Origin: Hyphomonadaceae bacterium
Lineage (GTDB): Bacteria > Pseudomonadota > Alphaproteobacteria > Caulobacterales > Hyphomonadaceae
Length of the DNA stretch: 55,593 bases
Reading direction: 5' to 3'
NCBI GenBank assembly: GCA_030697555.1
Contig: JAUYPV010000121.1
Coordinates: 1-55,593 of the forward strand
Part shown: positions 15,806 through 41,733 of the stretch, one piece after another
Layout of the letters: the number at the start of each line of letters is the position of its first letter
How positions within the stretch are numbered: the stretch's first letter is position 1
Notes under the pieces: model-generated
Told to the model about the DNA's origin: nothing
Databases searched by the model: none
Seen by the model: the letters and a program-made list of their open reading frames with translations, nothing else
Translations under genes and position numbers: made by a program

Positions 15806-17073
15806 TCCACATGGCTGATGCACGTCAGGTCATCACACTGAACAATGGCGTGCGGATGGTGTTCGACGCCATGCCCGGCCTTCGCACGGCCGCCGTTGGG
15901 GTCTTCCTCGGCGCCGGCGCACGGCATGAACCGGCCGACCGCAACGGCCTCGCGCACTTCCTCGAGCACATGGCCTTCAAGGGCGCTAACGGCCTCAACG
16001 CGCGCGAGATAGCCGAGGCCGTCGAGGCGCGTGGCGCATCCATCAACGCCGCCACCGAATACGAACGCACCAGCTATTTCGTCCGCTGCCTCAGCGCCGA
16101 TGCGCCGGAGATGCTGGAGACCGCGCTGTCGCTGGTTTTCGCGCCGAGCCATCCGCCCGAAGAGATCGAGCGTGAGAAGGGTGTTGTCCTGCAGGAAATC
16201 GGCGAAGCCGCAGACCAGCCCGATGACCTGGTCTTCGAGCTTGCGCAGGTGGCCAGCTATCCCGATCACCCGCTCGGCCGCCCCATCCTCGGCACCGAAG
16301 AGACGCTGGCGCCCGTTACCCGCAACGACCTCTACGACTTTGCCCGTTCCAACTATGCGCCGCACCGCACCGTCATTTCCGTAGCCGGCGCCTTCGATCG
16401 CGGCGCCATCGAAGATATCGTCCACCGCTGGTTCGACAGCCGCGAGCCTCTCGCCCGGGAATTTCTCCAGCCGCCAGGCCAGACCGGCTCTGCCGTTCGC
16501 ACCGAAGTGCGCAAGCTCGAGCAGGTCCACCTCGTCCTGGGCCGCCGCGCGCCTTCGGCGACATCCGACGATCGCTTCGCGGCGCGCATCTTCGCAGAGA
16601 TCTTCGGCGGCGGCATGGCCTCGCGCCTGTTCCAGGAAGTGCGCGAGAGCAGGGGACTCGCCTACACCATCGATGCGTCCGCCGAGCAGTATTCCGATGT
16701 CGGCCGCGTCTCGGTCTATGCCGGCTGCGCGACGAAGGATGCCGCCGAAGTCGTGAAGCTTACCTCCGATATCTGGGCGCAGATGGCGAGCGACGGCCCG
16801 ACCGAAGCCGAACTTGCGCGCGCCGTCGCCGTCGCCGCTGCCAGCTACGCCATGGCCGCCGAAGCCCCCGCCGCGCGCGCCGGCACCGCCGCGTATGAGC
16901 TTCTCACCTTCGACAGGCTCGTCCCCGTAGAGGAAGTTCTTCGCCGCATAGACGCCGTGACGGCCGATGACGTCCGCCGCATCGCGCGAGATTGCCTTGC
17001 ACAACCGGCTATTGCCGCCGCCGTCGGTCCTAAGGCTGGACTTGCCGCCGCTGAGGCGTTTGTCTCCGGCTGA
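15802..17073 (+). CDS. M16 family zinc peptidase (processing peptidase-like)
   Basis: 423 residues, the size of the mitochondrial processing peptidase beta/PepR type. The inverted zinc motif HFLEH is at residues 52-56 (His52, Glu55, His56), followed by MAFKGANGLNAREIAE; the third ligand is expected in EEIEREKGVVLQEI. The second, inactive M16 half contains FGGGMASRLFQEVRESRGLAY. No signal peptide is visible, so it is probably cytoplasmic. The start overlaps thrC by 4 bases; an internal ATG nine bases further on is also possible. Confidence 0.93.
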   Translation: MIHMADARQVITLNNGVRMVFDAMPGLRTAAVGVFLGAGARHEPADRNGLAHFLEHMAFKGANGLNAREIAEAVEARGASINAATEYERTSYFVRCLSADAPEMLETALSLVFAPSHPPEEIEREKGVVLQEIGEAADQPDDLVFELAQVASYPDHPLGRPILGTEETLAPVTRNDLYDFARSNYAPHRTVISVAGAFDRGAIEDIVHRWFDSREPLAREFLQPPGQTGSAVRTEVRKLEQVHLVLGRRAPSATSDDRFAARIFAEIFGGGMASRLFQEVRESRGLAYTIDASAEQYSDVGRVSVYAGCATKDAAEVVKLTSDIWAQMASDGPTEAELARAVAVAAASYAMAAEAPAARAGTAAYELLTFDRLVPVEEVLRRIDAVTADDVRRIARDCLAQPAIAAAVGPKAGLAAAEAFVSG

Positions 17074-25031: not shown

Positions 25032-27743
25032 TCAATTGTTCGACACTGCTTTCAGGGCGGTGGCTTTGAGCTGTTGGCGCGATGCTGCGACGTAACCTTT
25101 CCACGGGTCGGAACGGAGGCGGGAAAGGCGGGCGCCGATGGTCTTGATGGTGAAGGCTGCGGGGGTGTCGAACTTCGGAAGTTCGGCCCAGCTTACCGGC
25201 GTCGCGACGGGCGCGCCTTTGCGTCGGCGGGGGGAGAAGGGGGCGATAGCTGTTGAGCCACGCTCGTTGCGCAGCCAGTCGATGAAGATGCGGCCCTTGC
25301 GTTTGGCCTTCGAGGCCTGGGCGACATAGCGATCCGGCGCGTGGCTGGCGAGCATGCGGGCGAGGTCGCTGGAGAACTGCTTCACGTCCGGCCATTCCAG
25401 CTTGCGGGCGATCGGGACGATGACGTGGATGCCTTTGCCGCCCGTGAGCAGGGGGAAGCTCTTGAGGTCGAGGCTTTCGAGAACGCCTTTGAGTTCGACC
25501 GAGGCCGCCTTCACATCCTCGAAGTCCAGCCCCTCGTCCGGATCGAGATCGAACACGATGCGCTCAGGCTTTTCCAGGCTGTCGGTGCGGGCGCCCCAGA
25601 CGTGCAGCTCCAGCCCGCCGATCTGCGAGGCGCCGACGACGCCGGCGGCGTTGCGGATCACCAGATAATCGGCTTTGCCGCCGTCCTTCTCCTTGATGCT
25701 GACGGTTTCGATGGCGTCCGGCGTGGAGGGATTGTGGTGCTTCTGGAAGAAGCATTCGCCCTTGTACCCTTCGGGGCAGCGGACCAGGCTGAGCGGCCGG
25801 TCCTTCACATGGGGCAGGATCCGGTCGGAGAAATCATTGTAGTAAGTCGCGAGGTCGAGCTTGGTGAAGCCGTCTTCCGGCCAGAGCAGCTTGTCGGGCG
25901 AAGTCAGGCGCAGGCCCTTGATGGGCTCGGGCGCCTTCTTCGCGGCAGGTGGCTTCCTTGCCGGCGCGCGCACCTTTGGACTCGCCTTCACCGCCGCCGC
26001 GTGGGCGCGGGTCTTGGCCTTCGTCTTCTTCGTGCTTGCGAGCGACACGGAGGAGCTTCCCGTCTTCACCGCCTTTGCCGGCTTATCCTCGCGAAGGCCC
26101 AGGAAGCTGGGGTGGCGAAGATGGCCGTCGGGCGTGGTTTCAAGATAGGCTACCTGCGCGACAATGCGAGGCTCGACCCAGACAGCGTTGCGGCGGGCAT
26201 CGGTCGTTTCATCCTCGAAGGGGCTGGTCTTGCGTTTCAGCTTCTGGAGCCGGGGCAGGAGAGTGGCGAAGAGCTGGTCGTTGAAGCCCGTTCCGACGCG
26301 GCCACGATAGATCAGCTTGCCCTTGTCTTTGCCGGCGCCGAACTCGCCTAGAAGCAGGGAGCGGAAGGCCCGGCCCTTCTTATCGGAGAGGCGATAGCCA
26401 CCGATGACGAACTCGTCGCTGCCGATGCACTTGCTCTTGATCCACGAGAGGCCGCGGCCTGAACTGTAGAGCGCATCGGCGCGCTTGGAGATGACGCCTT
26501 CGAGGTTGAGCTTGCAGGCCGAAGCGATGACGTCCTCTCCGTCGCCATCGATGTGGCTGCTGTATTTGATGCTGTCGGGCGGGGAGCGGAGCAGGGCCTT
26601 CAGGCGCCTCTTGCGTTCGACCAGCGGGAGGTCGGTGAGATCTTCGCCGTCTTCGTTGAGGAGGTCGAACAGGTTGAATACCAGCGGAATGTTCTCGTCT
26701 TCCGTGGCCGCCTGCATCTTCGAGAAGGAGGCGTGGCCCTTGTCGTCCAGCGCGACCAGTTCACCATCGAGTACGGCATTCTTCAGGCCCAGCTGTGCCA
26801 CGGCTTCCGCCGTCCGCTGGTATTTGTGCGTCCAGTCCTTCTGGTTGCGAGTGAAGAGGCGGACCTTGCCTTTGTTGATGACAGCAATGATGCGGTAGCC
26901 GTCGAACTTGATCTCGTGCAGCCAGCCCGCTCCGGCCGGCGGCGAGGTATCAAGCGTGGCGAGCTGGGGTGCGACGAACTTTGGATCGACGCGGGGACCG
27001 CGTCGCCGAGGTCCGCTTTTTGGCTGGAGCTTTTTTGCGGGGGATTTCTTCGCAGCCCCCTTCTTCACCGTCGCCGTCTTCACTTTGGTCGCCTGCGTCT
27101 TTGCCTTCTTCGGGGCTTTCGATTTCGTCCGTGAGGTCGTCGAGTACATCTTTCCACGCTTGTACTTTTCGCCCTCATCGGTGATCCGGTCGAGGTCGCG
27201 GCCGGTCTTGATGCTGGTGTCCCATTCGTCGGTTGCAACGACGCTTTCGTCGGCCCACTGGTCGCGCTCTTTGATGAGCAGCCAGCTCTCATGTTTCGAC
27301 TTTTTCTCGCCGGGCTTTGGCCTGAGACGGATCAGTGCGAAACCACCTTTCAGGCGCTCGCCCATCAGCACGAACTTGAAGTTGCCCTTCTTCAGCCCTT
27401 CATGCGGATCGCCCTGCGGGGCCCAGACACCGCGATCCCACAGCATCACAGTGCCGGCGCCATAGCCTGAGGGGATCACGCCCTCGAAGCCGCCATATTC
27501 GACCGGATGGTCCTCGACGTGAACGGCGAGGCGCTTGTCGGCGGGGTTGAAGCTCGGCCCGCGCGTGACGGCCCACGAAAGCAGAACACTGTCCAGCTCC
27601 AGCCGGAAATCGTAGTGCAGGCGCGTCGCATCGTGTTTCTGGATGAGGTAGAGGCGGCCTTTGGTCTTCTTCATCTTGCCGCGCGGTTCGGGCGTCTCCT
27701 TGAAGTCCCGCATGCTCTGGTATCGCGAGAGGGAGTCGGCCAT
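25032..27743 (-). CDS. ligD: multifunctional DNA ligase D (NHEJ)
   Basis: 903 residues in the order phosphoesterase - ligase - polymerase. The phosphoesterase part (about 1-165) carries KHDATRLHYDFRLELD and VHVEDHPVEYGGFEG. The ATP-dependent ligase (about 235-560) has the adenylated Lys279 in HEIKFDGYR, then VLDGELVALD and GVISKRADALY. The primase/polymerase domain (about 605-890) has the catalytic pair Asp732/Asp734 (FDLDPDEGLD) and LTGGKGIHVIVP. The domains are joined by long Lys/Ala-rich linkers (about 205-240 and 575-610) suited to DNA contact. LigD processes and seals ends held by Ku. It starts 3 bases after ku and shares the EcfG-type promoter upstream of that gene. Confidence 0.97.
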   Translation of the reverse strand: MADSLSRYQSMRDFKETPEPRGKMKKTKGRLYLIQKHDATRLHYDFRLELDSVLLSWAVTRGPSFNPADKRLAVHVEDHPVEYGGFEGVIPSGYGAGTVMLWDRGVWAPQGDPHEGLKKGNFKFVLMGERLKGGFALIRLRPKPGEKKSKHESWLLIKERDQWADESVVATDEWDTSIKTGRDLDRITDEGEKYKRGKMYSTTSRTKSKAPKKAKTQATKVKTATVKKGAAKKSPAKKLQPKSGPRRRGPRVDPKFVAPQLATLDTSPPAGAGWLHEIKFDGYRIIAVINKGKVRLFTRNQKDWTHKYQRTAEAVAQLGLKNAVLDGELVALDDKGHASFSKMQAATEDENIPLVFNLFDLLNEDGEDLTDLPLVERKRRLKALLRSPPDSIKYSSHIDGDGEDVIASACKLNLEGVISKRADALYSSGRGLSWIKSKCIGSDEFVIGGYRLSDKKGRAFRSLLLGEFGAGKDKGKLIYRGRVGTGFNDQLFATLLPRLQKLKRKTSPFEDETTDARRNAVWVEPRIVAQVAYLETTPDGHLRHPSFLGLREDKPAKAVKTGSSSVSLASTKKTKAKTRAHAAAVKASPKVRAPARKPPAAKKAPEPIKGLRLTSPDKLLWPEDGFTKLDLATYYNDFSDRILPHVKDRPLSLVRCPEGYKGECFFQKHHNPSTPDAIETVSIKEKDGGKADYLVIRNAAGVVGASQIGGLELHVWGARTDSLEKPERIVFDLDPDEGLDFEDVKAASVELKGVLESLDLKSFPLLTGGKGIHVIVPIARKLEWPDVKQFSSDLARMLASHAPDRYVAQASKAKRKGRIFIDWLRNERGSTAIAPFSPRRRKGAPVATPVSWAELPKFDTPAAFTIKTIGARLSRLRSDPWKGYVAASRQQLKATALKAVSNN

Positions 27744-28681: not shown

Positions 28682-28706
28682 AACGCCAAGCAAACCTCTG
28701 GGTTCC
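28682..28706 (-). promoter_or_regulatory. EcfG (general stress sigma) promoter of ku-ligD
   Basis: On the minus strand GGAAC (28706-28702), exactly 16 bases, then CGTT (28685-28682): a perfect match to the alphaproteobacterial EcfG/sigma-T consensus. It sits 17 bases beyond the GH130 stop and about 30 before the ku ATG, so the leader would be about 22 bases with a GAGGA ribosome-binding site. Links NHEJ to the general stress response. Confidence 0.75.
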
Positions 28707-28722
28707 TGCTTTAAGCGGGTTC

Positions 28723-30054
28723 CTATTTCAGCGTGGCGAGCAGGTCGCTTATCCGCATGGAAACGAAGCGAACCGAGGAATCCGCAACTCCATAGGGCAG
28801 GAGCAGCATTTCTCCGACCTTCAGCGCGCCGCAGGTGTAGACCACGTTCGGGACGTAGCCCTCCCGGGTCTCGTCGACTGGCGTGAGAAAAGGTTCGCGG
28901 GAGCGGCCGATGACTTTCGATGGGTCCCTCTTGTCGAGCAGGGCAGCGCCCATCGAATACTGCCGCATCGCGCCGACCCCATGGGTCAGCAACAGCCAGC
29001 CTTCGTCGAGTTCGATCGGCGATCCGCAGTTGCCGAGTTGGACGAGCTCCCAGAGATACTTCGGCTGCATGATCCGCTTGCCATAGTTCCAGGTGAAGCG
29101 GTCGTCGCTCTGCATGAAGTAGAGGCTTTCATGATCGAGCCGGCCGATGGCGGTGTAGCGGCCGTCGATGCGACGCGGGAAGAGCGCGAGACCCTTGTGC
29201 TGGGCCGCGGCCCCGCGAAGGGGTGTGAGGTCGAACTCCGAGAAGCGCTCGGTGGTCAGCATTTCGCAGCCGACGTCCCGGCCGGAAAAAGCGGTATAGG
29301 TCCCGACATAGTATGCCGCGCCGTCGTCCTCGGTGAAGCGCACGAGGCGGAGGTCCTCGAGGCCGTTCTTCTGGGCGCGTGTGATCGGGAAGATCACGAC
29401 GCCGGAAAGCGGTGAGGAGTCGTGACGCCGGACGGCGACTGGCCCGCCTTCTCCATTGTGGTTGTCGGTTGTAGCGGCGATGGCGAACGGCGTTTCGGGC
29501 CAGAGCGTGAAATTGCCGTCGGGCGTAGCGAGGCCTTCTCGGAATGAGATCGATGAGATGTGACCTTCGCCCACGGTACGCAGTGAAAGGACGAACTTCA
29601 CGGCGCCGCCGATCACGCCGGACTGGTCAGGATGTACGACGATGGAGGGGTTCATCACCGCGGCAGCGGCGTAAGAATACTCGTGGCTGAAGTAAGCTCC
29701 GATGAGCTTGGCGTGGTCTTCGTTGACGTTGTCGAGGCCGCCTATGAGGTTGCGGACCTGTTCGAAGCGATCGATGAAGATGGAGTGGGTCTGCCAGTGA
29801 CGGCCGAAGAAGTCGCCGTCGACGGCGTCGAGATACCTGCGGCACTCTGCATCGGAGAGCGCGAGCACGGTTTTCACGATGCGTTCGGCGCGGGTCATGA
29901 TGCCGTAGGCGGTGCCGCGCGGCTCCGCCGTGATGCTGAAGGGGCGGAGGACGACGCGCGAGGGATCGGCGACTAGCTGGGCGTCGTGATGGCGAAGCTC
30001 GAACATTTGGCTGGGGGACCCGTCTGTGTGCAGCAGCGGCTTTAGAGCGGTCAC
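28723..30054 (-). CDS. GH130 family glycoside phosphorylase/hydrolase
   Basis: 443 residues with a five-bladed propeller fold expected for GH130. These enzymes mostly phosphorolyse beta-mannosidic bonds, releasing mannose 1-phosphate; some hydrolyse. Seen are NPSIVVHPDQSG, GLEDLRLVRFTEDDG, YTAIGRLDHESLYFM, ELVQLGNCGSPIELDEGWLLLTHG (split by family motif LTHGVG) and VPNVVYTCGALK. Start GTG 30054 lies one base after the stop of the GT4 gene, which implies translational coupling; the frame stays open upstream inside GT4 but that part is non-coding. Substrate cannot be read; a role in a mannose-containing storage or protective glycan is likely from its partner. Confidence 0.9.
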   Translation of the reverse strand: MTALKPLLHTDGSPSQMFELRHHDAQLVADPSRVVLRPFSITAEPRGTAYGIMTRAERIVKTVLALSDAECRRYLDAVDGDFFGRHWQTHSIFIDRFEQVRNLIGGLDNVNEDHAKLIGAYFSHEYSYAAAAVMNPSIVVHPDQSGVIGGAVKFVLSLRTVGEGHISSISFREGLATPDGNFTLWPETPFAIAATTDNHNGEGGPVAVRRHDSSPLSGVVIFPITRAQKNGLEDLRLVRFTEDDGAAYYVGTYTAFSGRDVGCEMLTTERFSEFDLTPLRGAAAQHKGLALFPRRIDGRYTAIGRLDHESLYFMQSDDRFTWNYGKRIMQPKYLWELVQLGNCGSPIELDEGWLLLTHGVGAMRQYSMGAALLDKRDPSKVIGRSREPFLTPVDETREGYVPNVVYTCGALKVGEMLLLPYGVADSSVRFVSMRISDLLATLK

Positions 30055-30055
30055 A

Positions 30056-32356
30056 TTACGGTCCTGATCGGGAACGGAGAAGGTCTCGCATGCTCGCCGA
30101 GGCGAGATGGTAGCTGAGAATGGATTCGGCGCCCTGATTCTGGTTGGCGCCGTGGACGGTGAGACCATCGAAGCATCCGCCATCGGCGGGCATGGCCAGG
30201 GCCAGACCATGGTCGTTCTGGCCGGCGAACCACATGAAGGCAGCTTCGGCGCGTGAGGCCCAAGCTTCCTCGCGGGTGGCCTGGAAGGCGGCGACACAGG
30301 CGTCGACCGTGGCGAGCGCCTCGATGGGCTGCTGGTCGAAGCAGGGGTGGTCGGCGTCGCACTGAGCGAAGGAGGAGGTGGCAATGGGAGAGAACCAGCC
30401 CTGCGGCGACCGCTGGCGGCGCATCAGAATCGCGAGGGTGGTGAGGCCCGCGTCGAGCCAGTCCTGCCGCTTGAGGCGATGGCCGGCGAGGATGAGAGCC
30501 TCGGGCAGGCGGGCGTTGTCGTAGGTGAGGCCCGGCTCGAACCATTCGCCGCCTTGTTCGCTTTGCTGGGCCAACAGGGCGAGCATGGCGTCGGCGGCTT
30601 GGGTGATGAAGGCGGTGGTCTTCACCGGATCCGGCGTGGCCAAATCGACGAGCAGCAACGACTTGATCAGCAGGGCGCGGGCGCGAACCGAGGACCACGC
30701 ACCGATATGGGGCAGAGCGTCAACGAGCATGGACTGCGCCCAGTCGCGGAGATCGGGGCGGGTGGCGTGGCCGCCGGCGAGGCAGAGAGATTCGAAGGAG
30801 CGGGCGCAGCAATCGTCCGAGCCGCCCTCGTCCAGCCAGGTACGGTTGAAGCCCATGAAGTTGCGGAAGCGGCCGGTGTCGGGATTCCAGGCGTGGCTGA
30901 TGAAGGCGGCGCTGGAGTAGGTGAGGCGCGCGTCGGGATCGCCGTTGTCGCCTTCAAGGGACAGGCGGGCAAACAGGGTCAGCGCGCGGGCGTTGTCGTC
31001 GCTGCAGTAGCCGTGGCGGCGGTCAGGGACGCGGAAGCGGGCGTGCTGGAAGATGCCGCAGTCGTCGAACATGTGGCGCACTGCCCCAAGCGAGGGACGG
31101 GAGAGGGTGCGGATGGAGGCCTGGGCGCGCTTGTCGCCGGCGTCGCGGCAGGCAATGGCGAGCTCGAGCGAGGACGCGGCGACCTTGCGCCAGCGCGAAG
31201 GCTCGCCGGCCTTCCAGGCGCGCCGGGCCATGGCTTCGCGGCGAACCTGGTTGGAGAGAAGGCTGGTGATTTCGCGGCCGAAGGCTTCGGAGTCGTGGAA
31301 GTTGCAGATGATGCCTACGCCGTCCGCCAGCGCTTCCGTTGCGTGCCAGTAGGGCGTCGAGATCACCGGCTTGCCCAGCGCGATCGCGTAGCTGAGCGTG
31401 CCCGAAGTGATCTGTGCTTCGGTGAGGTAGGGCGTTACGTAGATGTCGGCCGCCTGCAGCAGATCGACCAACTCCTGCTGGTCGACGAACCGATTGATGA
31501 AGCCGAAGTGCTCGGCAACGCCCAGTGACTCCGCCAGCGCGACGAGGCTGTCGCGGTAGGTCTCGCCATCACGCGCCAGCAGGTGCGGGTGCGTGGCGCC
31601 GACGACAAGATAGTGAGTGTCCGGATGCTGGCTCAGTATGCCGGGCAGGGCGCGGATGATGGTTTCGACCCCCTTGTTCGGCGAGATCAGGCCGAATGTC
31701 ATCAGCAGCTTCTGGCCGGCGAAACCGAGCGCCGCCTTGAATTTTTCCGTCGAAGCGAAAGGCCGTTCCGGCGCCCCGTGCGGAATGACGTGAACTTTGG
31801 AAGGGCCGACGCGGTGGACACGCTGGATGATCTCGGCGCCCTTCCAGGTCATGACGATGGCGCCGGCGGCGAGATGGAGGATTTCATCCATCACGCGCTT
31901 CTGCACCGGCGTCGGATGTTCAAGCACCGTATGAAGCCAGACAATGACCGGCATACGCAGGCGCCGCATCAGCAGGAGGAGGTTCGAGCCAGCCTCGCCG
32001 CCGAAAATGCCGAACTCGTGCTGGACGATCACCACTTCGACGCCGGAAAGGTTGAGGACGTCCGCGATGCGCACATAGGCCTTAGGATCGTCCTGGGGCA
32101 GGACGTGCGTGACATCCTCCGGATAGTCGTAGGTGGAGCCTGTGTCGTTCATCGCGACCACGTGCCACTCAGCAGTAGGGCTCTGGTCGCGCAGGCTGGT
32201 GAAGGCATCGTGGGTGAAAGTCGCGATCCCACAGCGGCGCGGTGGGAAATTGCCGATCATCGCCGCGCGCCGCAGGGGAGCGGCGAACGACGAAGGACCC
32301 TTCAGGCCTTGCGGCGCACGGTCGACAGTCAACAAAGCAAACCCCCGTTTGGGCAT
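30056..32356 (-). CDS. GT4 glycosyltransferase with C-terminal helical domain
   Basis: 766 residues. The N-terminal half (about 30-400) is a GT-B fold glycosyltransferase 4: IGNFPPRRCGIATF, a donor-side GLISPNKGVETIIRALP, and the EX7E-like region ITSGTLSYAIALGKPVISTPY. The C-terminal half (about 425-755) is an all-helical, alpha/alpha-barrel-like domain with YCSDDNARALTLF, FNRTWLDEGGSDDCCARS and GGEWFEPGLTYDNARLPEAL, resembling glycosidase-like accessory domains. Coupled to the GH130 gene. ATG 32356 is preferred because an EcfG-type promoter covers the longer TTG start at 32410. Confidence 0.9.
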   Translation of the reverse strand: MPKRGFALLTVDRAPQGLKGPSSFAAPLRRAAMIGNFPPRRCGIATFTHDAFTSLRDQSPTAEWHVVAMNDTGSTYDYPEDVTHVLPQDDPKAYVRIADVLNLSGVEVVIVQHEFGIFGGEAGSNLLLLMRRLRMPVIVWLHTVLEHPTPVQKRVMDEILHLAAGAIVMTWKGAEIIQRVHRVGPSKVHVIPHGAPERPFASTEKFKAALGFAGQKLLMTFGLISPNKGVETIIRALPGILSQHPDTHYLVVGATHPHLLARDGETYRDSLVALAESLGVAEHFGFINRFVDQQELVDLLQAADIYVTPYLTEAQITSGTLSYAIALGKPVISTPYWHATEALADGVGIICNFHDSEAFGREITSLLSNQVRREAMARRAWKAGEPSRWRKVAASSLELAIACRDAGDKRAQASIRTLSRPSLGAVRHMFDDCGIFQHARFRVPDRRHGYCSDDNARALTLFARLSLEGDNGDPDARLTYSSAAFISHAWNPDTGRFRNFMGFNRTWLDEGGSDDCCARSFESLCLAGGHATRPDLRDWAQSMLVDALPHIGAWSSVRARALLIKSLLLVDLATPDPVKTTAFITQAADAMLALLAQQSEQGGEWFEPGLTYDNARLPEALILAGHRLKRQDWLDAGLTTLAILMRRQRSPQGWFSPIATSSFAQCDADHPCFDQQPIEALATVDACVAAFQATREEAWASRAEAAFMWFAGQNDHGLALAMPADGGCFDGLTVHGANQNQGAESILSYHLASASMRDLLRSRSGP

Positions 32357-32381
32357 AAATCTACGGAACGTCTGGGGGTCG

Positions 32382-32406
32382 AACGCGTTGCAGTGCAGCA
32401 AGTTCC
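32382..32406 (-). promoter_or_regulatory. EcfG promoter of the GT4-GH130 operon
   Basis: GGAAC (32406-32402), a 16-base spacer, CGTT (32385-32382) on the minus strand. Transcription should start near 32375, about 20 bases before ATG 32356. The upstream TTG at 32410 lies inside this promoter and so cannot be the translated start from this transcript. Confidence 0.75.
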
Positions 32407-32477
32407 CCAACGGGACGAACGTTGGCTAACGACCAGAGATATCGATCATTTTCTGGGCGGAGAGGCGGGGAAGTTGG

Positions 32478-32633
32478 CTAGCCCCAGTGTCCCTGTAGCA
32501 CCTGCCCTAGGGCCCATAGCGCCGCGAGTCCACCGTAAAGCAGGAGGGCCAGCCGCATATCCTGCCGTTCTCCGCGGGAAATGCGTGTGGGCTGATGGAC
32601 TTTCAGTCCGTGTTCGACGGGATCGAGCTTCAA
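32478..32633 (-). CDS. possible small single-span membrane protein
   Basis: 51 codons from TTG 32633 to TAG 32478. The product has a polar N-terminus (LKLDPVEHGLKVHQPTRIS) followed by a hydrophobic helix (MRLALLLYGGLAALWALGQV) and ends QGHWG. The positive-then-hydrophobic layout looks real, and it follows the DUF5985-like genes on the same strand after 71 bases. There is no convincing ribosome-binding site, and the frame is open further upstream without a better start. It fills the gap between the GT4 promoter and the DUF5985 genes. Confidence 0.35.
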   Translation of the reverse strand: MKLDPVEHGLKVHQPTRISRGERQDMRLALLLYGGLAALWALGQVLQGHWG

Positions 32634-32704
32634 GACGGCTCTCAGACAAGCTGGTTCGGCGCCAGTGATATCTGAGTCGCGGGTGGTTACAGACGGAGTC
32701 GCGG

Positions 32705-32968
32705 CTAGCGGCCCATATTCTTCCGCAGGATAGCAAAACTGAGGATCAGGAACGCCGCGAGACGCAGCAGGTATATCCAGCTGCGGTCTTCCTCAGGCAG
32801 GCCCAGGAATGTGGTCAGGAATTGCTGCGTGGCCAGCAGGGCAAACGCCAACGCGAAGGCTAAAAACAGACCGTCCTTCGTCCTGTTCCAGAAGCGCAGG
32901 AAGAACAGGGCGGCGACGAGGAGGCCGGCAGCCTGGAAGCCTGAAAAGAACTCGGGATGTGGCATCAT
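32705..32968 (-). CDS. DUF5985-like small membrane protein (second of pair)
   Basis: 87 residues with three hydrophobic helices and the conserved-looking core FFLRFWNRTKDGLFLAFALA followed by EEDRSWIYLLRLAAFLILSFAILRKN, as in DUF5985 proteins. Function unknown. ATG 32968 overlaps the stop of the preceding paralogue by 4 bases (ATGA), so expression is coupled and a heteromeric pair is likely. Located in a three-gene set with a winged-helix regulator. Confidence 0.8.
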   Translation of the reverse strand: MMPHPEFFSGFQAAGLLVAALFFLRFWNRTKDGLFLAFALAFALLATQQFLTTFLGLPEEDRSWIYLLRLAAFLILSFAILRKNMGR

Positions 32969-33231
32969 TCGGCCTCCCAGATCAGGCCGAAAATCAGCAC
33001 GCAGATCGCCACAACGCCCGCCGTCACGCGGAAGGCGCTCAGGTCTACGTCGGGCGGGGCGAGCGTGGTGTCCGCAAACAGGAAGAAGTTGTTCACCGCG
33101 AGAAAAACGAAGCTGACCGCTGTCCAGAGCAGCAGCCGCGTTCGCGTTTTCATCCAAGACCGCACCAGCATCCCGGCGCAGACAGCGCAGGTAACGAAGC
33201 AAAGTATGTAGACCAGAGCGGGCGCGATCAT
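32965..33231 (-). CDS. DUF5985-like small membrane protein (first of pair)
   Basis: 88 residues, three hydrophobic helices, with LVRSWMKTRTRLLLWTAVSF in the position of the FLRFWxRTxDxLFLxF core of its neighbour, so the two look like paralogues. The start ATG 33231 overlaps the stop of the regulator gene (ATGA) and has GGAAGGA just before it. Function unknown; the pairing suggests a small heterodimeric membrane unit. Confidence 0.78.
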   Translation of the reverse strand: MIAPALVYILCFVTCAVCAGMLVRSWMKTRTRLLLWTAVSFVFLAVNNFFLFADTTLAPPDVDLSAFRVTAGVVAICVLIFGLIWEAE

Positions 33232-33704
33232 TCGTCCTTCCCCCAATCTTTACCCTTAGCATCCGGCCCCTTGAGCCGGAATGCATCCGAGAAATTCCGG
33301 AGTTTGTCGTTAGGCGACCACGTGATGGCGTCGCGAACGGCGATCGGCCGGTCATGGCTGGCGATTTCGAGGGCCTCACAAAGGCGGGCCAAATCGGGCG
33401 TTGCGGGCGAGAAACGAGCGGTTCCCGCTTCATCGTCCAGAGACACCAGCCCGGCCTGCGCAAGCTGGTGCAGGCACTTCGAAATTAACCCAGGTGAGGA
33501 TCGAAGAGCTGCGACGATCTCACCCGGCTTCAATGCTTCGGCGGTCCTGCGCCGCAAGAGCAGCAGCACCTCCAGGGACCAGATGGACTGGACCGAGTTC
33601 CTGATAAAAGCGATGAGTTCGGGGTCGAGCACTGGACTTTCGGGCCGTGTTTCTTCCGCTGGCGGCACGGATGCCAAATGGCCAATGCCCGCCGATGCGA
33701 ACAA
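33228..33704 (-). CDS. winged-helix DNA-binding protein, unknown family
   Basis: About 158 residues. The core (SIWSLEVLLLLRRRTAEALK, then EIVAALRSSPGLISKCLHQL and AGLVSLDDEAGTARFSP) has the helix-turn-helix plus wing pattern of a small MarR/PadR-like repressor; the C-terminus is charged (GPDAKGKDWGKDE). The start is uncertain: TTG 33704 follows AGGA by six bases and gives a compact protein, while the frame stays open to 33947. It leads the DUF5985-like pair through a 4-base overlap and is divergent from the giant kinase, so it may control one or both sides of the shared 195-base interval. Confidence 0.65.
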   Translation of the reverse strand: MFASAGIGHLASVPPAEETRPESPVLDPELIAFIRNSVQSIWSLEVLLLLRRRTAEALKPGEIVAALRSSPGLISKCLHQLAQAGLVSLDDEAGTARFSPATPDLARLCEALEIASHDRPIAVRDAITWSPNDKLRNFSDAFRLKGPDAKGKDWGKDE

Positions 33705-33740
33705 TGACAATCCTACGCAAAAATAAACCGGAAACAGTGT

Positions 33741-33765
33741 GGAACCTGACTTCCAGGGCTGCGTT
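33741..33765 (+). promoter_or_regulatory. EcfG promoter of the giant kinase gene
   Basis: GGAAC (33741-33745), 16 bases, CGTT (33762-33765) on the plus strand. Transcription should begin near 33773, leaving an unusually long leader of about 125 bases before ATG 33900. Third perfect copy of this promoter within about 5 kb. Confidence 0.75.
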
Positions 33766-33780
33766 TTGGATTTTCGGAGG

Positions 33781-33856
33781 GGTGTATGCGGACGCACACC
33801 TCGTGCTGAAATCGCCGGTCGCTCCGGCAAATCCAGGTTAAGCGCCCGTCGGGCGC
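33781..33856 (+). promoter_or_regulatory. structured 5' leader of the giant kinase mRNA
   Basis: Three consecutive inverted repeats: GGTGT/ACACC with inner GCG/CGC (33781-33800), GCCGG-TCGCT-CCGGC (33814-33828) and GCGCCC-GTC-GGGCGC (33842-33856). All lie between the predicted start of transcription and the GGGGAG ribosome-binding site of the kinase. Post-transcriptional control or leader stability is possible. I do not recognise a known riboswitch. Confidence 0.4.
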
Positions 33857-33899: not shown

Positions 33900-40214
<6,315 letters not shown>

Positions 40215-40218
40215 GGTC

Positions 40219-41733
40219 ATGATGAATCCAGATGCAGCCGGCAAACAGAAGATCAACATCCTCCTGGTCGACGACCAGCCCGGAAAACTTGCGAGCTACG
40301 AGGTCATCCTCGCGGAGCTAGGCGAGAACCTGATCAAGACGTCCTCGGCGAAAGAGGCGCTGGAAGTCCTGCTCAAGACCGACATCGCCGTCGTTCTGGT
40401 GGACGTCTGCATGCCGGAACTCGACGGCTTCGAGCTGGCGCAGATGATCCGCGAGCATCCGCGCTTCAAGGAAACGGCGATCATCTTCATCTCCGCCGTG
40501 TTGCTATCGGAACTGGACAGCCTGCGGGCCTATGAGATGGGTGGCGTGGACTATGTCTCGGTGCCGGTGGTGCCGGGCGTGCTGCGCGCCAAGGTACGGG
40601 TGTTCGTCGATCTCTATCGCAAATCGAAAGAGCTGGAGCGCATCAACAACGAACTCGAAAGCCGGGTGAAGGAGCGGACTGCGGAACTGGAAGCCGCGAT
40701 CGCGCAGCAGGAGCTGCTGGCCCGCGAAGTGGATCACAGGGCGCGCAACGCGCTGGCCGTGATCCAGTCGATCGTTTCGATGATGCCGGATACGCCCGGC
40801 GGCAAGATGGCGAAGGTCATCGAAGGGCGTATCCGCGCCATGGCGCGGGCGCACACCCTGCTATCGCAGGCGCGCTGGGAAGGCGCCGATCTCTACAAGC
40901 TGGTGAACGAAGAGCTGGAGCCCTTTCGCGCTGGCGACCGTGTGAAGATTCATGGCCAGGCGGCGGCCATCAAGCCGGCCGTGGCGCAGAATTTCGCGCT
41001 GGCGATCCACGAGCTGGCGACCAACGCCGCCAAGTATGGTGCACTGTCGGCGCAGAAAGGCCGGCTGGATGTTTCCTGGACGCTGTCACCGAGCGGGCTG
41101 GTCATGACGTGGAGCGAGTCGGGTAGCCCGAATTCAGGGCCGCCGACCAAGAAAGGCTTCGGCACAAAGGTCATCGAGGCGAGTATCAAGCATCAGCTGA
41201 CGGGCGTGATCGAAAGCGACTGGTCGAGCGGAAGCCTCGTCTGCACGTTGCGCGTGCCGGCGGAGCATTTCTCCGAGATGGTGGCGCGATCGGCGGACGA
41301 GCCGCCAGAGGAAGAGGATGTGATGGAGCCACGCCCATCGATGGTCGATCCGCGCATCAATGGTCGCCGGATCCTGTTGGTCGAAGACGAGCCGCTGGTC
41401 GCAATGATGATGACGCAAATGATTGCGGACATGGGCGGCCAGGTGATCGGGCCATTTGGCACGCTGCGCGATGCAATCGACGGATTGCCTGAAGAAGGGC
41501 TCGACGCGGCGGTGCTCGATGTCAACGTCGGCGGCGAGCTGATCTATCCGCTGGCGGAGCGGTTGGAGCGGGACGGCACCCCCTTGATGTTCCTGACCGG
41601 CTATGACTCGAAGAGCGTCGACCGGCGGTTTGTCACGGCGCGCGTGTTGACCAAGCCGATCGAGGGCCCGGAGCTTGCCTCTGCTCTGGCGAGCCTGCTG
41701 GAAGCGCAGCCGAAGGCGCGGGCGCACGCCTGA
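40219..41733 (+). CDS. REC - HWE-type histidine kinase - REC signalling protein
   Basis: 504 residues. An N-terminal receiver (phospho-Asp62 in VDVCMPELDG) is followed by a short coiled coil, an HWE/HisKA_2-type kinase with phosphoacceptor His173 (EVDHRARNALAVIQSI) and the N-box HELATNAAKYGALS, and a C-terminal receiver (Asp434, VLDVNVGGEL). No membrane helix. HWE/HisKA_2 kinases feed the PhyR-NepR-EcfG general stress pathway in alphaproteobacteria. The gene begins 4 bases after the giant kinase stop, its ribosome-binding site overlapping that stop, so the N-terminal receiver may accept phosphate from the giant kinase. Two ATG codons in a row make the first residue uncertain. Confidence 0.9.
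   Translation: MMNPDAAGKQKINILLVDDQPGKLASYEVILAELGENLIKTSSAKEALEVLLKTDIAVVLVDVCMPELDGFELAQMIREHPRFKETAIIFISAVLLSELDSLRAYEMGGVDYVSVPVVPGVLRAKVRVFVDLYRKSKELERINNELESRVKERTAELEAAIAQQELLAREVDHRARNALAVIQSIVSMMPDTPGGKMAKVIEGRIRAMARAHTLLSQARWEGADLYKLVNEELEPFRAGDRVKIHGQAAAIKPAVAQNFALAIHELATNAAKYGALSAQKGRLDVSWTLSPSGLVMTWSESGSPNSGPPTKKGFGTKVIEASIKHQLTGVIESDWSSGSLVCTLRVPAEHFSEMVARSADEPPEEEDVMEPRPSMVDPRINGRRILLVEDEPLVAMMMTQMIADMGGQVIGPFGTLRDAIDGLPEEGLDAAVLDVNVGGELIYPLAERLERDGTPLMFLTGYDSKSVDRRFVTARVLTKPIEGPELASALASLLEAQPKARAHA

Follow-up and report, generated by a model that had tools for sequence, protein, structure and literature searches.

What three perfect copies of a stress-promoter motif are doing within 5 kb of one another is the question raised by a 55,593-nt contig of a Hyphomonadaceae bacterium (GenBank GCA_030697555.1, JAUYPV010000121.1; "the window" is this whole stretch). 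The motif, GGAAC-N16-CGTT, is of the type read by EcfG, the sigma factor of the alphaproteobacterial general stress response (GSR), and an earlier note on this DNA had taken the three copies to define a compact general-stress island. All three matches were confirmed at the coordinates and on the strands given below. We consider it very likely that three EcfG promoters drive three neighbouring, evolutionarily independent units here, with transcription predicted from the sequence: the end-joining genes ku-ligD, a GT4-GH130 gene pair, and a giant poly-HAMP kinase with a REC-HWE partner kinase. The sites and the genes that they would control are as follows (nt, nucleotides; aa, amino acids).

28682..28706, minus strand: site 1, EcfG-type promoter GGAAC-N16-CGTT, 29 nt from CGTT to the ku start codon
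27747..28652, minus strand: ku, 301 aa, first gene of ku-ligD, PF02735 and TIGR02772 above cut-off
25032..27743, minus strand: ligD, 903 aa, 3 nt past ku, with phosphoesterase, ligase and primase-polymerase; TIGR02776 and Pfam LigD domains above cut-off
32382..32406, minus strand: site 2, EcfG-type promoter GGAAC-N16-CGTT, 25 nt to the likely GT4 start (ATG at 32356)
30056..32356, minus strand: GT4 glycosyltransferase, 766 aa, PF00534, the C-terminal ~350 aa without a Pfam match
28723..30006, minus strand: GH130-family protein, 427 aa, PF04041 at 90.3 bits (cut-off 26)
33741..33765, plus strand: site 3, EcfG-type promoter GGAAC-N16-CGTT, 134 nt ahead of the giant kinase
33900..40214, plus strand: giant poly-HAMP hybrid histidine kinase, 2104 aa, with group III (Nik1/Ask)-like architecture
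40219..41733, plus strand: REC-HWE-REC histidine kinase, 504 aa, PF07536 at 74.7 bits (cut-off 22.8)

Such promoters presuppose a regulator that reads them. PhyR, NepR and EcfG-like sigma genes, the components of the established PhyR-NepR-EcfG switch, were all found, so the absence of ecfG or phyR that the earlier note had named as fatal to its reading does not apply; together with a real motif class and the conservation of sites 1 and 2, they lend good support to the EcfG-type identity of the promoters. PhyR, on contig C12, reaches 354.7 bits against an NCBIfam cut-off of 240, and NepR exceeds its Pfam cut-off at two places in the genome. On C12, nepR is followed by a sigma gene, interrupted by the contig end, and the two are divergent from phyR; the intergenic region contains one N16 and one N17 site, pointing both ways. 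The second NepR-sigma pair is complete (G000:C162:8165-8943, G000 being this genome) and probably gives the genome two EcfG paralogues; a hemerythrin gene that has its own N17 site is some 2 kb away. Both sigma genes match extracytoplasmic function (ECF) sigma models below those models' own cut-offs, the complete one passing TIGR02937, and they are called EcfG-like because nepR adjoins them, not by an EcfG-specific model.

The arrangement is like the GSR of Sphingopyxis granuli TFA and Sphingomonas melonis Fr1 in promoter motif, core regulators and divergent phyR versus nepR-ecfG, and also in having ku(-ligD) as a target and hybrid or HWE kinases among the targets. In S. granuli, GGAAC-N16-CGTT is the GSR motif obtained by experiment (PMC7083833). 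Unlike in those two systems, GT4-GH130 and the poly-HAMP kinase with its REC-HWE partner are candidate targets here; neither is a named target in the available parts of PMC7083833 and PMC6599016, where the S. melonis targets #1750 Glycosyltransferase, #1751 Glycosidases and hybrid kinase #1746 are possible relatives, by description only.

Counting matches proved a poor test of the motif. The earlier note's expectation of one match per 262 kb holds for equal base use only, and not for a window at 64% G+C: shuffled windows gave an expectation of 1.71 matches (spacers 15-18, both strands) against five found, and 4 of 100 shuffles reached five. Across the genome, N16 and N17 matches numbered 100 and those of a reversed-pattern control 87; counts alone are therefore weak evidence, and we set genome-wide counting aside as indecisive and relied on spacing and location instead. 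The proposal that three matches in 5 kb are unlikely by chance thus finds little footing in bare counts and a better one in spacing and location. In a 916 kb sample with a coding fraction of 86%, 45 of 57 N16 matches were non-coding, compared with 27 of 131 for other spacers (8-15, 18-30; p = 4e-14), and 13 of 25 for N17; the sample comprises stretches around most sites, picked for N16/17 matches, which inflates the number of matches and leaves the non-coding share unaffected. Over the whole genome, the non-coding fractions were 51/68 (N16) and 17/32 (N17), and 38 N16 and 11 N17 matches stood within 150 nt upstream of a correctly directed gene. Judged from other spacers, 3.9 such places would be expected per spacer, so about 10% of the upstream N16 sites should be false positives. 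Genes were called with our own codon-usage script, with start codons approximate and small genes missed (e.g., the winged-helix gene at 33228). A Pfam scan of 40 proteins downstream of sites returned CsbD, two hemerythrins, two DUF4142, OmpA, glycine-zipper, DJ-1/PfpI, a diacylglycerol-kinase-like protein and a PAS hybrid kinase, and no Pfam family for 14 of the 40.

Within the window, sites 1 and 2 are non-coding, correctly directed and at the usual distance from their genes (29 nt for ku and, with a GT4 start at 32356, 25 nt for GT4). In the 916 kb sample, 33 non-coding N16 sites lie no farther than 150 nt from a gene, and the distance is 22-46 nt for 23 of them, which is taken here as usual. 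The GT4 start at 32356 was chosen since relatives show homology only from about residue 14 onwards; with the later start picked by the codon-usage gene caller, the leader would be 121 nt. Site 3 is likewise non-coding and correctly directed, and stands 134 nt from the start codon, so that a position just upstream of a gene, claimed for all three, holds for sites 1 and 2 and is doubtful for site 3. Two further matches occur in the window, a GGAAC-N18-CGTT at 16324-16350 (minus strand) and a fourth exact GGAAC-N16-CGTT at 32365..32389 (plus strand), which overlaps site 2 and arises from the palindrome AACGCGTT in its -10 region. The latter is probably accidental, because no plus-strand gene is called within 1510 nt ahead of it and it was not found at the same promoter in any of ten relatives compared.

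Site 1 precedes a complete bacterial non-homologous end-joining set, i.e., Ku plus a LigD with ligase, phosphoesterase and polymerase domains. Ku matches occur in 16 of 105 family genomes, and 13 relatives could be read for a promoter once this genome, G008 (broken pieces and a 40% Ku) and G013 (broken pieces) were excluded. In 12 of the 13, a GGAAC-N16/17 site whose -10 is at most one mismatch from CGTT stands 23-38 nt ahead of the ku start, the -10 reading CATT in nine, CGTT in two and CGTA in one; only L115 has no such site before ku. Studies in Sinorhizobium reportedly describe RpoE2-dependent end joining. Stress control of ku-ligD is known biology found in a new species: the GSR of S. granuli controls ku-ligD directly through the GGAAC-N16-CGTT consensus (PMC7083833), and in S. 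melonis Ku depends on EcfG and is preceded, at 30 nt, by a GGAAC motif (PMC6599016). The nine relatives with GGAAC-N16/17-CATT before ku (L106-L114) hold the weaker -10 constant, which may mean selection for low promoter strength; with S. granuli, in vitro transcription fell when CGTT was mutated to CATT and rose when CATT was mutated to CGTT (PMC7083833). Broken remnants of ku and ligD adjoin an intact GT4-GH130 pair in G013 (L050 5347-5756), and G008:C107 has Ku pieces with stops plus the separate 40% Ku, which suggests repeated decay of end joining in the genus.

Site 2 is kept together with its genes. GT4 is present in 8 of 15 genomes of the genus, this one included, and the exact N16 site stands upstream of it in all six readable congeners, the seventh (L056) being interrupted by a contig end. 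The distance from site to called start is about 38-43 nt in four of these; in L050 and L051 it is about 40 nt to an ATG identified by eye, the gene caller having taken a later start. A second genus of the family has the exact site in four of seven loci, one of them a partial gene. In relatives the boxes are kept and the flanking bases diverge, and, because other genes flank the pair there, the promoter goes with the GT4-GH130 operon and not with the neighbourhood. We regard sites 1 and 2 as almost certainly real EcfG promoters.

As for what this operon does, the domain content suggests that GT4 would build a glycan and GH130 recover it by phosphorolysis. The nearest solved relatives of GH130 are beta-1,2-mannobiose and oligomannan phosphorylases (7fip, E 3.5e-32), and its C-terminal half aligns with PDB 7fip, 9fj8 and 5b0p. 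Unlike those enzymes, it scores below the NCBIfam equivalog cut-offs for beta-1,2-mannobiose phosphorylase (137 bits against 550 and 126 against 450) and is paired with a GT4 bearing an unassigned C-terminal region. The glycan is most likely a beta-mannan or mannoside serving as reserve or protectant, and the label "osmolyte" given to the pair earlier is a guess. Our literature search, which covered few subscription journals, returned no paper joining GH130 with EcfG and, among the 25 listed of 76 papers that contain at least two of the kinase and regulator terms, none in which poly-HAMP occurs together with HWE, EcfG or PhyR.

The third unit has a different history. The giant kinase contains 11 HAMP and 12 HAMP_2 stretches, GAF, HisKA, HATPase and three REC domains, and so has the features that the available description of group III kinases lists, namely more than five HAMPs, HisKA, HATPase and REC (PMC7643160). 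The lack of a membrane span is a further mark of the group, and the sequence, as judged by eye, may share it. By that description it resembles Nik1-type proteins and Myxococcus xanthus AskA/AskB in its many HAMPs, HisKA-HATPase core and several REC domains; like the Ask system, where AskC lies beside askB, it also has a second kinase gene directly downstream and partial SpoIIID and HTH_6 matches within the HAMPs (PMC7643160). It differs from AskA-C in the HWE core of its partner and in the EcfG-type site upstream, and the likeness is one of description, not of sequence (PMC7643160). First-look searches scored the best 14, 8 and 2 candidates per genome (14 for HWE-like kinases, 8 for the giant kinase), and at E <= 1e-150 with the best eight scored, 103 of the 105 family genomes had no match, leaving this genome and G059, a 46% relative. 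Among the best 80 of 578 relatives, those at 71-74% identity are Rhodoplanes, Nitrospirillum and Bradyrhizobium records and one Caulobacteraceae metagenome-assembled genome (MAG). Being near-absent in the family and having its 71-74% relatives outside it, the giant kinase was probably acquired.

From these 80 relatives we took 36 alphaproteobacterial and 32 other loci (28 of the latter usable), the division being read from record titles, which may be wrong for MAGs. For the upstream count, which excludes 5'-cut or broken-frame loci, an exact N16/17 site precedes the kinase in 5 of 28 alphaproteobacterial and 0 of 30 other loci (p = 0.02), and with a relaxed -10 (CGTT, GGTT, CATT or TGTT) the figures become 9/28 and 0/30 (p = 0.0006). 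A wrong-spacing control with three times as many spacings gave three in each group. Coupling of an EcfG site to the giant kinase is therefore, as judged from sequence, recurrent and far from universal.

The partner gene begins 4 nt past the giant kinase, and the two are probably on one transcript. In all 36 alphaproteobacterial loci examined, the gene after the giant kinase encodes a partner whose N-terminal REC is homologous; about 17 of these loci are Bradyrhizobium or close kin and hence not independent. By Pfam, its core is HWE in 28 and HisKA in 8 of the 36, whereas the adjacent gene in 25 non-alphaproteobacterial loci (those of the 28 usable with an adjacent same-strand gene) has HWE in 1, HisKA in 11, HisKA_3 in 5 and CheR in 7. 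The sole HWE case among the latter is probably L209, a MAG titled Gammaproteobacteria with 66% BLAST identity. BLAST coverage was tried as an HWE-core test (33/36 alphaproteobacterial, 4/28 other loci) and rejected, as it overcounts by Pfam; L195, for instance, is HisKA. HWE kinases are mostly alphaproteobacterial, and with 17 of the 36 loci from Bradyrhizobium kin the contrast partly reflects phylogeny. Like the HWE/HisKA2 kinases feeding PhyR (LovHK, PhyK, Paks), the partner has an HWE_HK domain, and its best NCBIfam match, below cut-off, is a blue-light LOV kinase. Unlike them, it has a REC at the N-terminus where those kinases carry a sensory domain, and therefore probably takes its input from the giant kinase. 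The partner is not the only HWE-like kinase of the genome, in which at least 14 matches were scored.

Several observations weigh against three EcfG promoters. In the second genus, three of seven loci lack an exact site close to the GT4 start, and beyond the family, elsewhere in the class, none of five readable loci has one there (TGTT lies 31 nt upstream in one of these, and an exact N17 match 322 nt upstream in another). When the bases flanking the nine fixed ones are scored, site 1 reaches 0.8, and sites 2 and 3, at -4.5 and -3.0, rank lower than every one of the 29 training sites (-2.2 to 10.3) and lie within the range of coding matches (-8.7 to 0.9); this in-sample score, not cross-validated, holds little information, making the unfavourable result a weak one. 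At site 3, the leader of 134 nt is long against the usual 22-46 nt, 19 of the 28 alphaproteobacterial relatives lack even a relaxed site, and Sabulicella (L195) has the same divergent trio of small genes beside its kinase, no site and a HisKA partner. These last points, added to the roughly 10% background among upstream N16 matches and the low flanking-base score, are what one would expect if sites 1 and 2 were real and site 3 a chance match, with the giant kinase using another promoter. Such an account fits poorly with exact sites in five alphaproteobacterial relatives, where about 0.1 would be expected by an estimate from the background rate, and in none of the 30 others, as well as with G059, where an exact N16 site precedes the start of the shorter kinase by 137 nt; we think it unlikely and hold site 3 to be a probable EcfG promoter. 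A reading of the sites by another ECF sigma factor with a GGAAC -35 seems very improbable. GGAAC alone is indeed unspecific, because the E. coli RpoE -35 is GGAACTT (PMC8103513), but the GSR motif obtained by experiment has CGTT after a spacer of 16 (PMC7083833), and the same motif lies between phyR and nepR-sigma in this genome.

If the three promoters are real, do the units form one island? That they are a selected stress island moving or evolving together draws on the three sites within 5 kb and on G013, whose ku and ligD remnants directly downstream of GH130 indicate that the adjacency of ku-ligD and GT4-GH130 is older than this genome. Against it, GT4-GH130 with its promoter has other gene contexts in the other congeners examined, the three loci with intact ku that were studied at length (L177-L179) place it elsewhere, and 103 of the 105 family genomes had no giant-kinase match at E <= 1e-150 with the best eight candidates scored. 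Clusters of EcfG sites are not peculiar to the window: of the 68 non-coding sites in the genome, 28 have another no more than 5.1 kb away, versus 8.7 at random (placement on one 4.98 Mb line), a count that includes overlapping pairs, two of them on C65, and the accidental match in the window, and other clusters of three or more sites occur on C12, C65, C66 and C138. The compact general-stress island of the earlier note therefore goes too far, and we give a jointly evolving island little chance; co-regulation by one stress sigma factor, which that note also proposed, is likely, and an evolved unit is not borne out. The cluster in the window is one of several, made up of three independent neighbours.

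Under three EcfG promoters on independent units, stress would lead to phosphorylation of PhyR, which would remove NepR from EcfG, and EcfG-RNA polymerase would then initiate a few nt past CGTT, inducing all three units. The main inputs to PhyR are HWE/HisKA2 kinases (PMC6599016), and the giant kinase and its HWE partner would probably return stress information to PhyR. Signals may pass from the giant kinase to the conserved REC of the partner and on to whichever output kinase a lineage uses, in alphaproteobacteria towards the stress response. More tentatively, and with the odds somewhat against it, a Nik1/Ask-type poly-HAMP sensor might be wired into the alphaproteobacterial GSR, with the HWE core phosphorylating PhyR and the EcfG promoter closing a positive loop in some lineages. 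If true, what is new would be a stress-induced GT4-GH130 glycan pathway, its promoter conserved across two genera, and a candidate GSR input, a bacterial relative of Nik1, the osmosensor of fungi, acting via an HWE kinase; the variable core of the partner kinase makes the input idea testable in tractable relatives (Bradyrhizobium, Nitrospirillum). Elsewhere in the genome, the PAS hybrid kinase gene (L082:7358-9289, G000:C131) begins 24 nt past an exact N16 site and is a second possible feedback input.

The leader between site 3 and the giant kinase was also considered as a structured element, and this was rejected (z -1.26, with 14 of 200 shuffles as good); the only match in an Rfam scan of the window was a tRNA. 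Within that leader, an ATG with a strong GGAGG, 20 nt past the -10, opens a 7-codon frame (33786-33809, plus strand), perhaps a leader peptide and perhaps chance. On the other side of site 3 lie three divergent small genes:

32705..32968, minus strand: DUF5985 small protein, PF19447 above cut-off
32965..33231, minus strand: DUF5985 small protein, PF19447 above cut-off
33228..33632, minus strand: winged-helix-like small protein, MarR_2 and HTH_5 below cut-off, start set by eye and uncertain

The same literature search returned no paper on DUF5985. Winged-helix homologues of 121-125 aa adjoin giant kinases in L191, L192 and L195, and DUF5985, as one or two genes with or without the winged-helix gene, occurs no more than three genes away from the giant kinase in 4 of 36 alphaproteobacterial and 1 of 28 other loci (L191, L192, L193, L195 and L232), Sabulicella (L195) sharing the divergent trio of the window. 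The DUF5985 and winged-helix genes are possibly part of a mobile sensor module.

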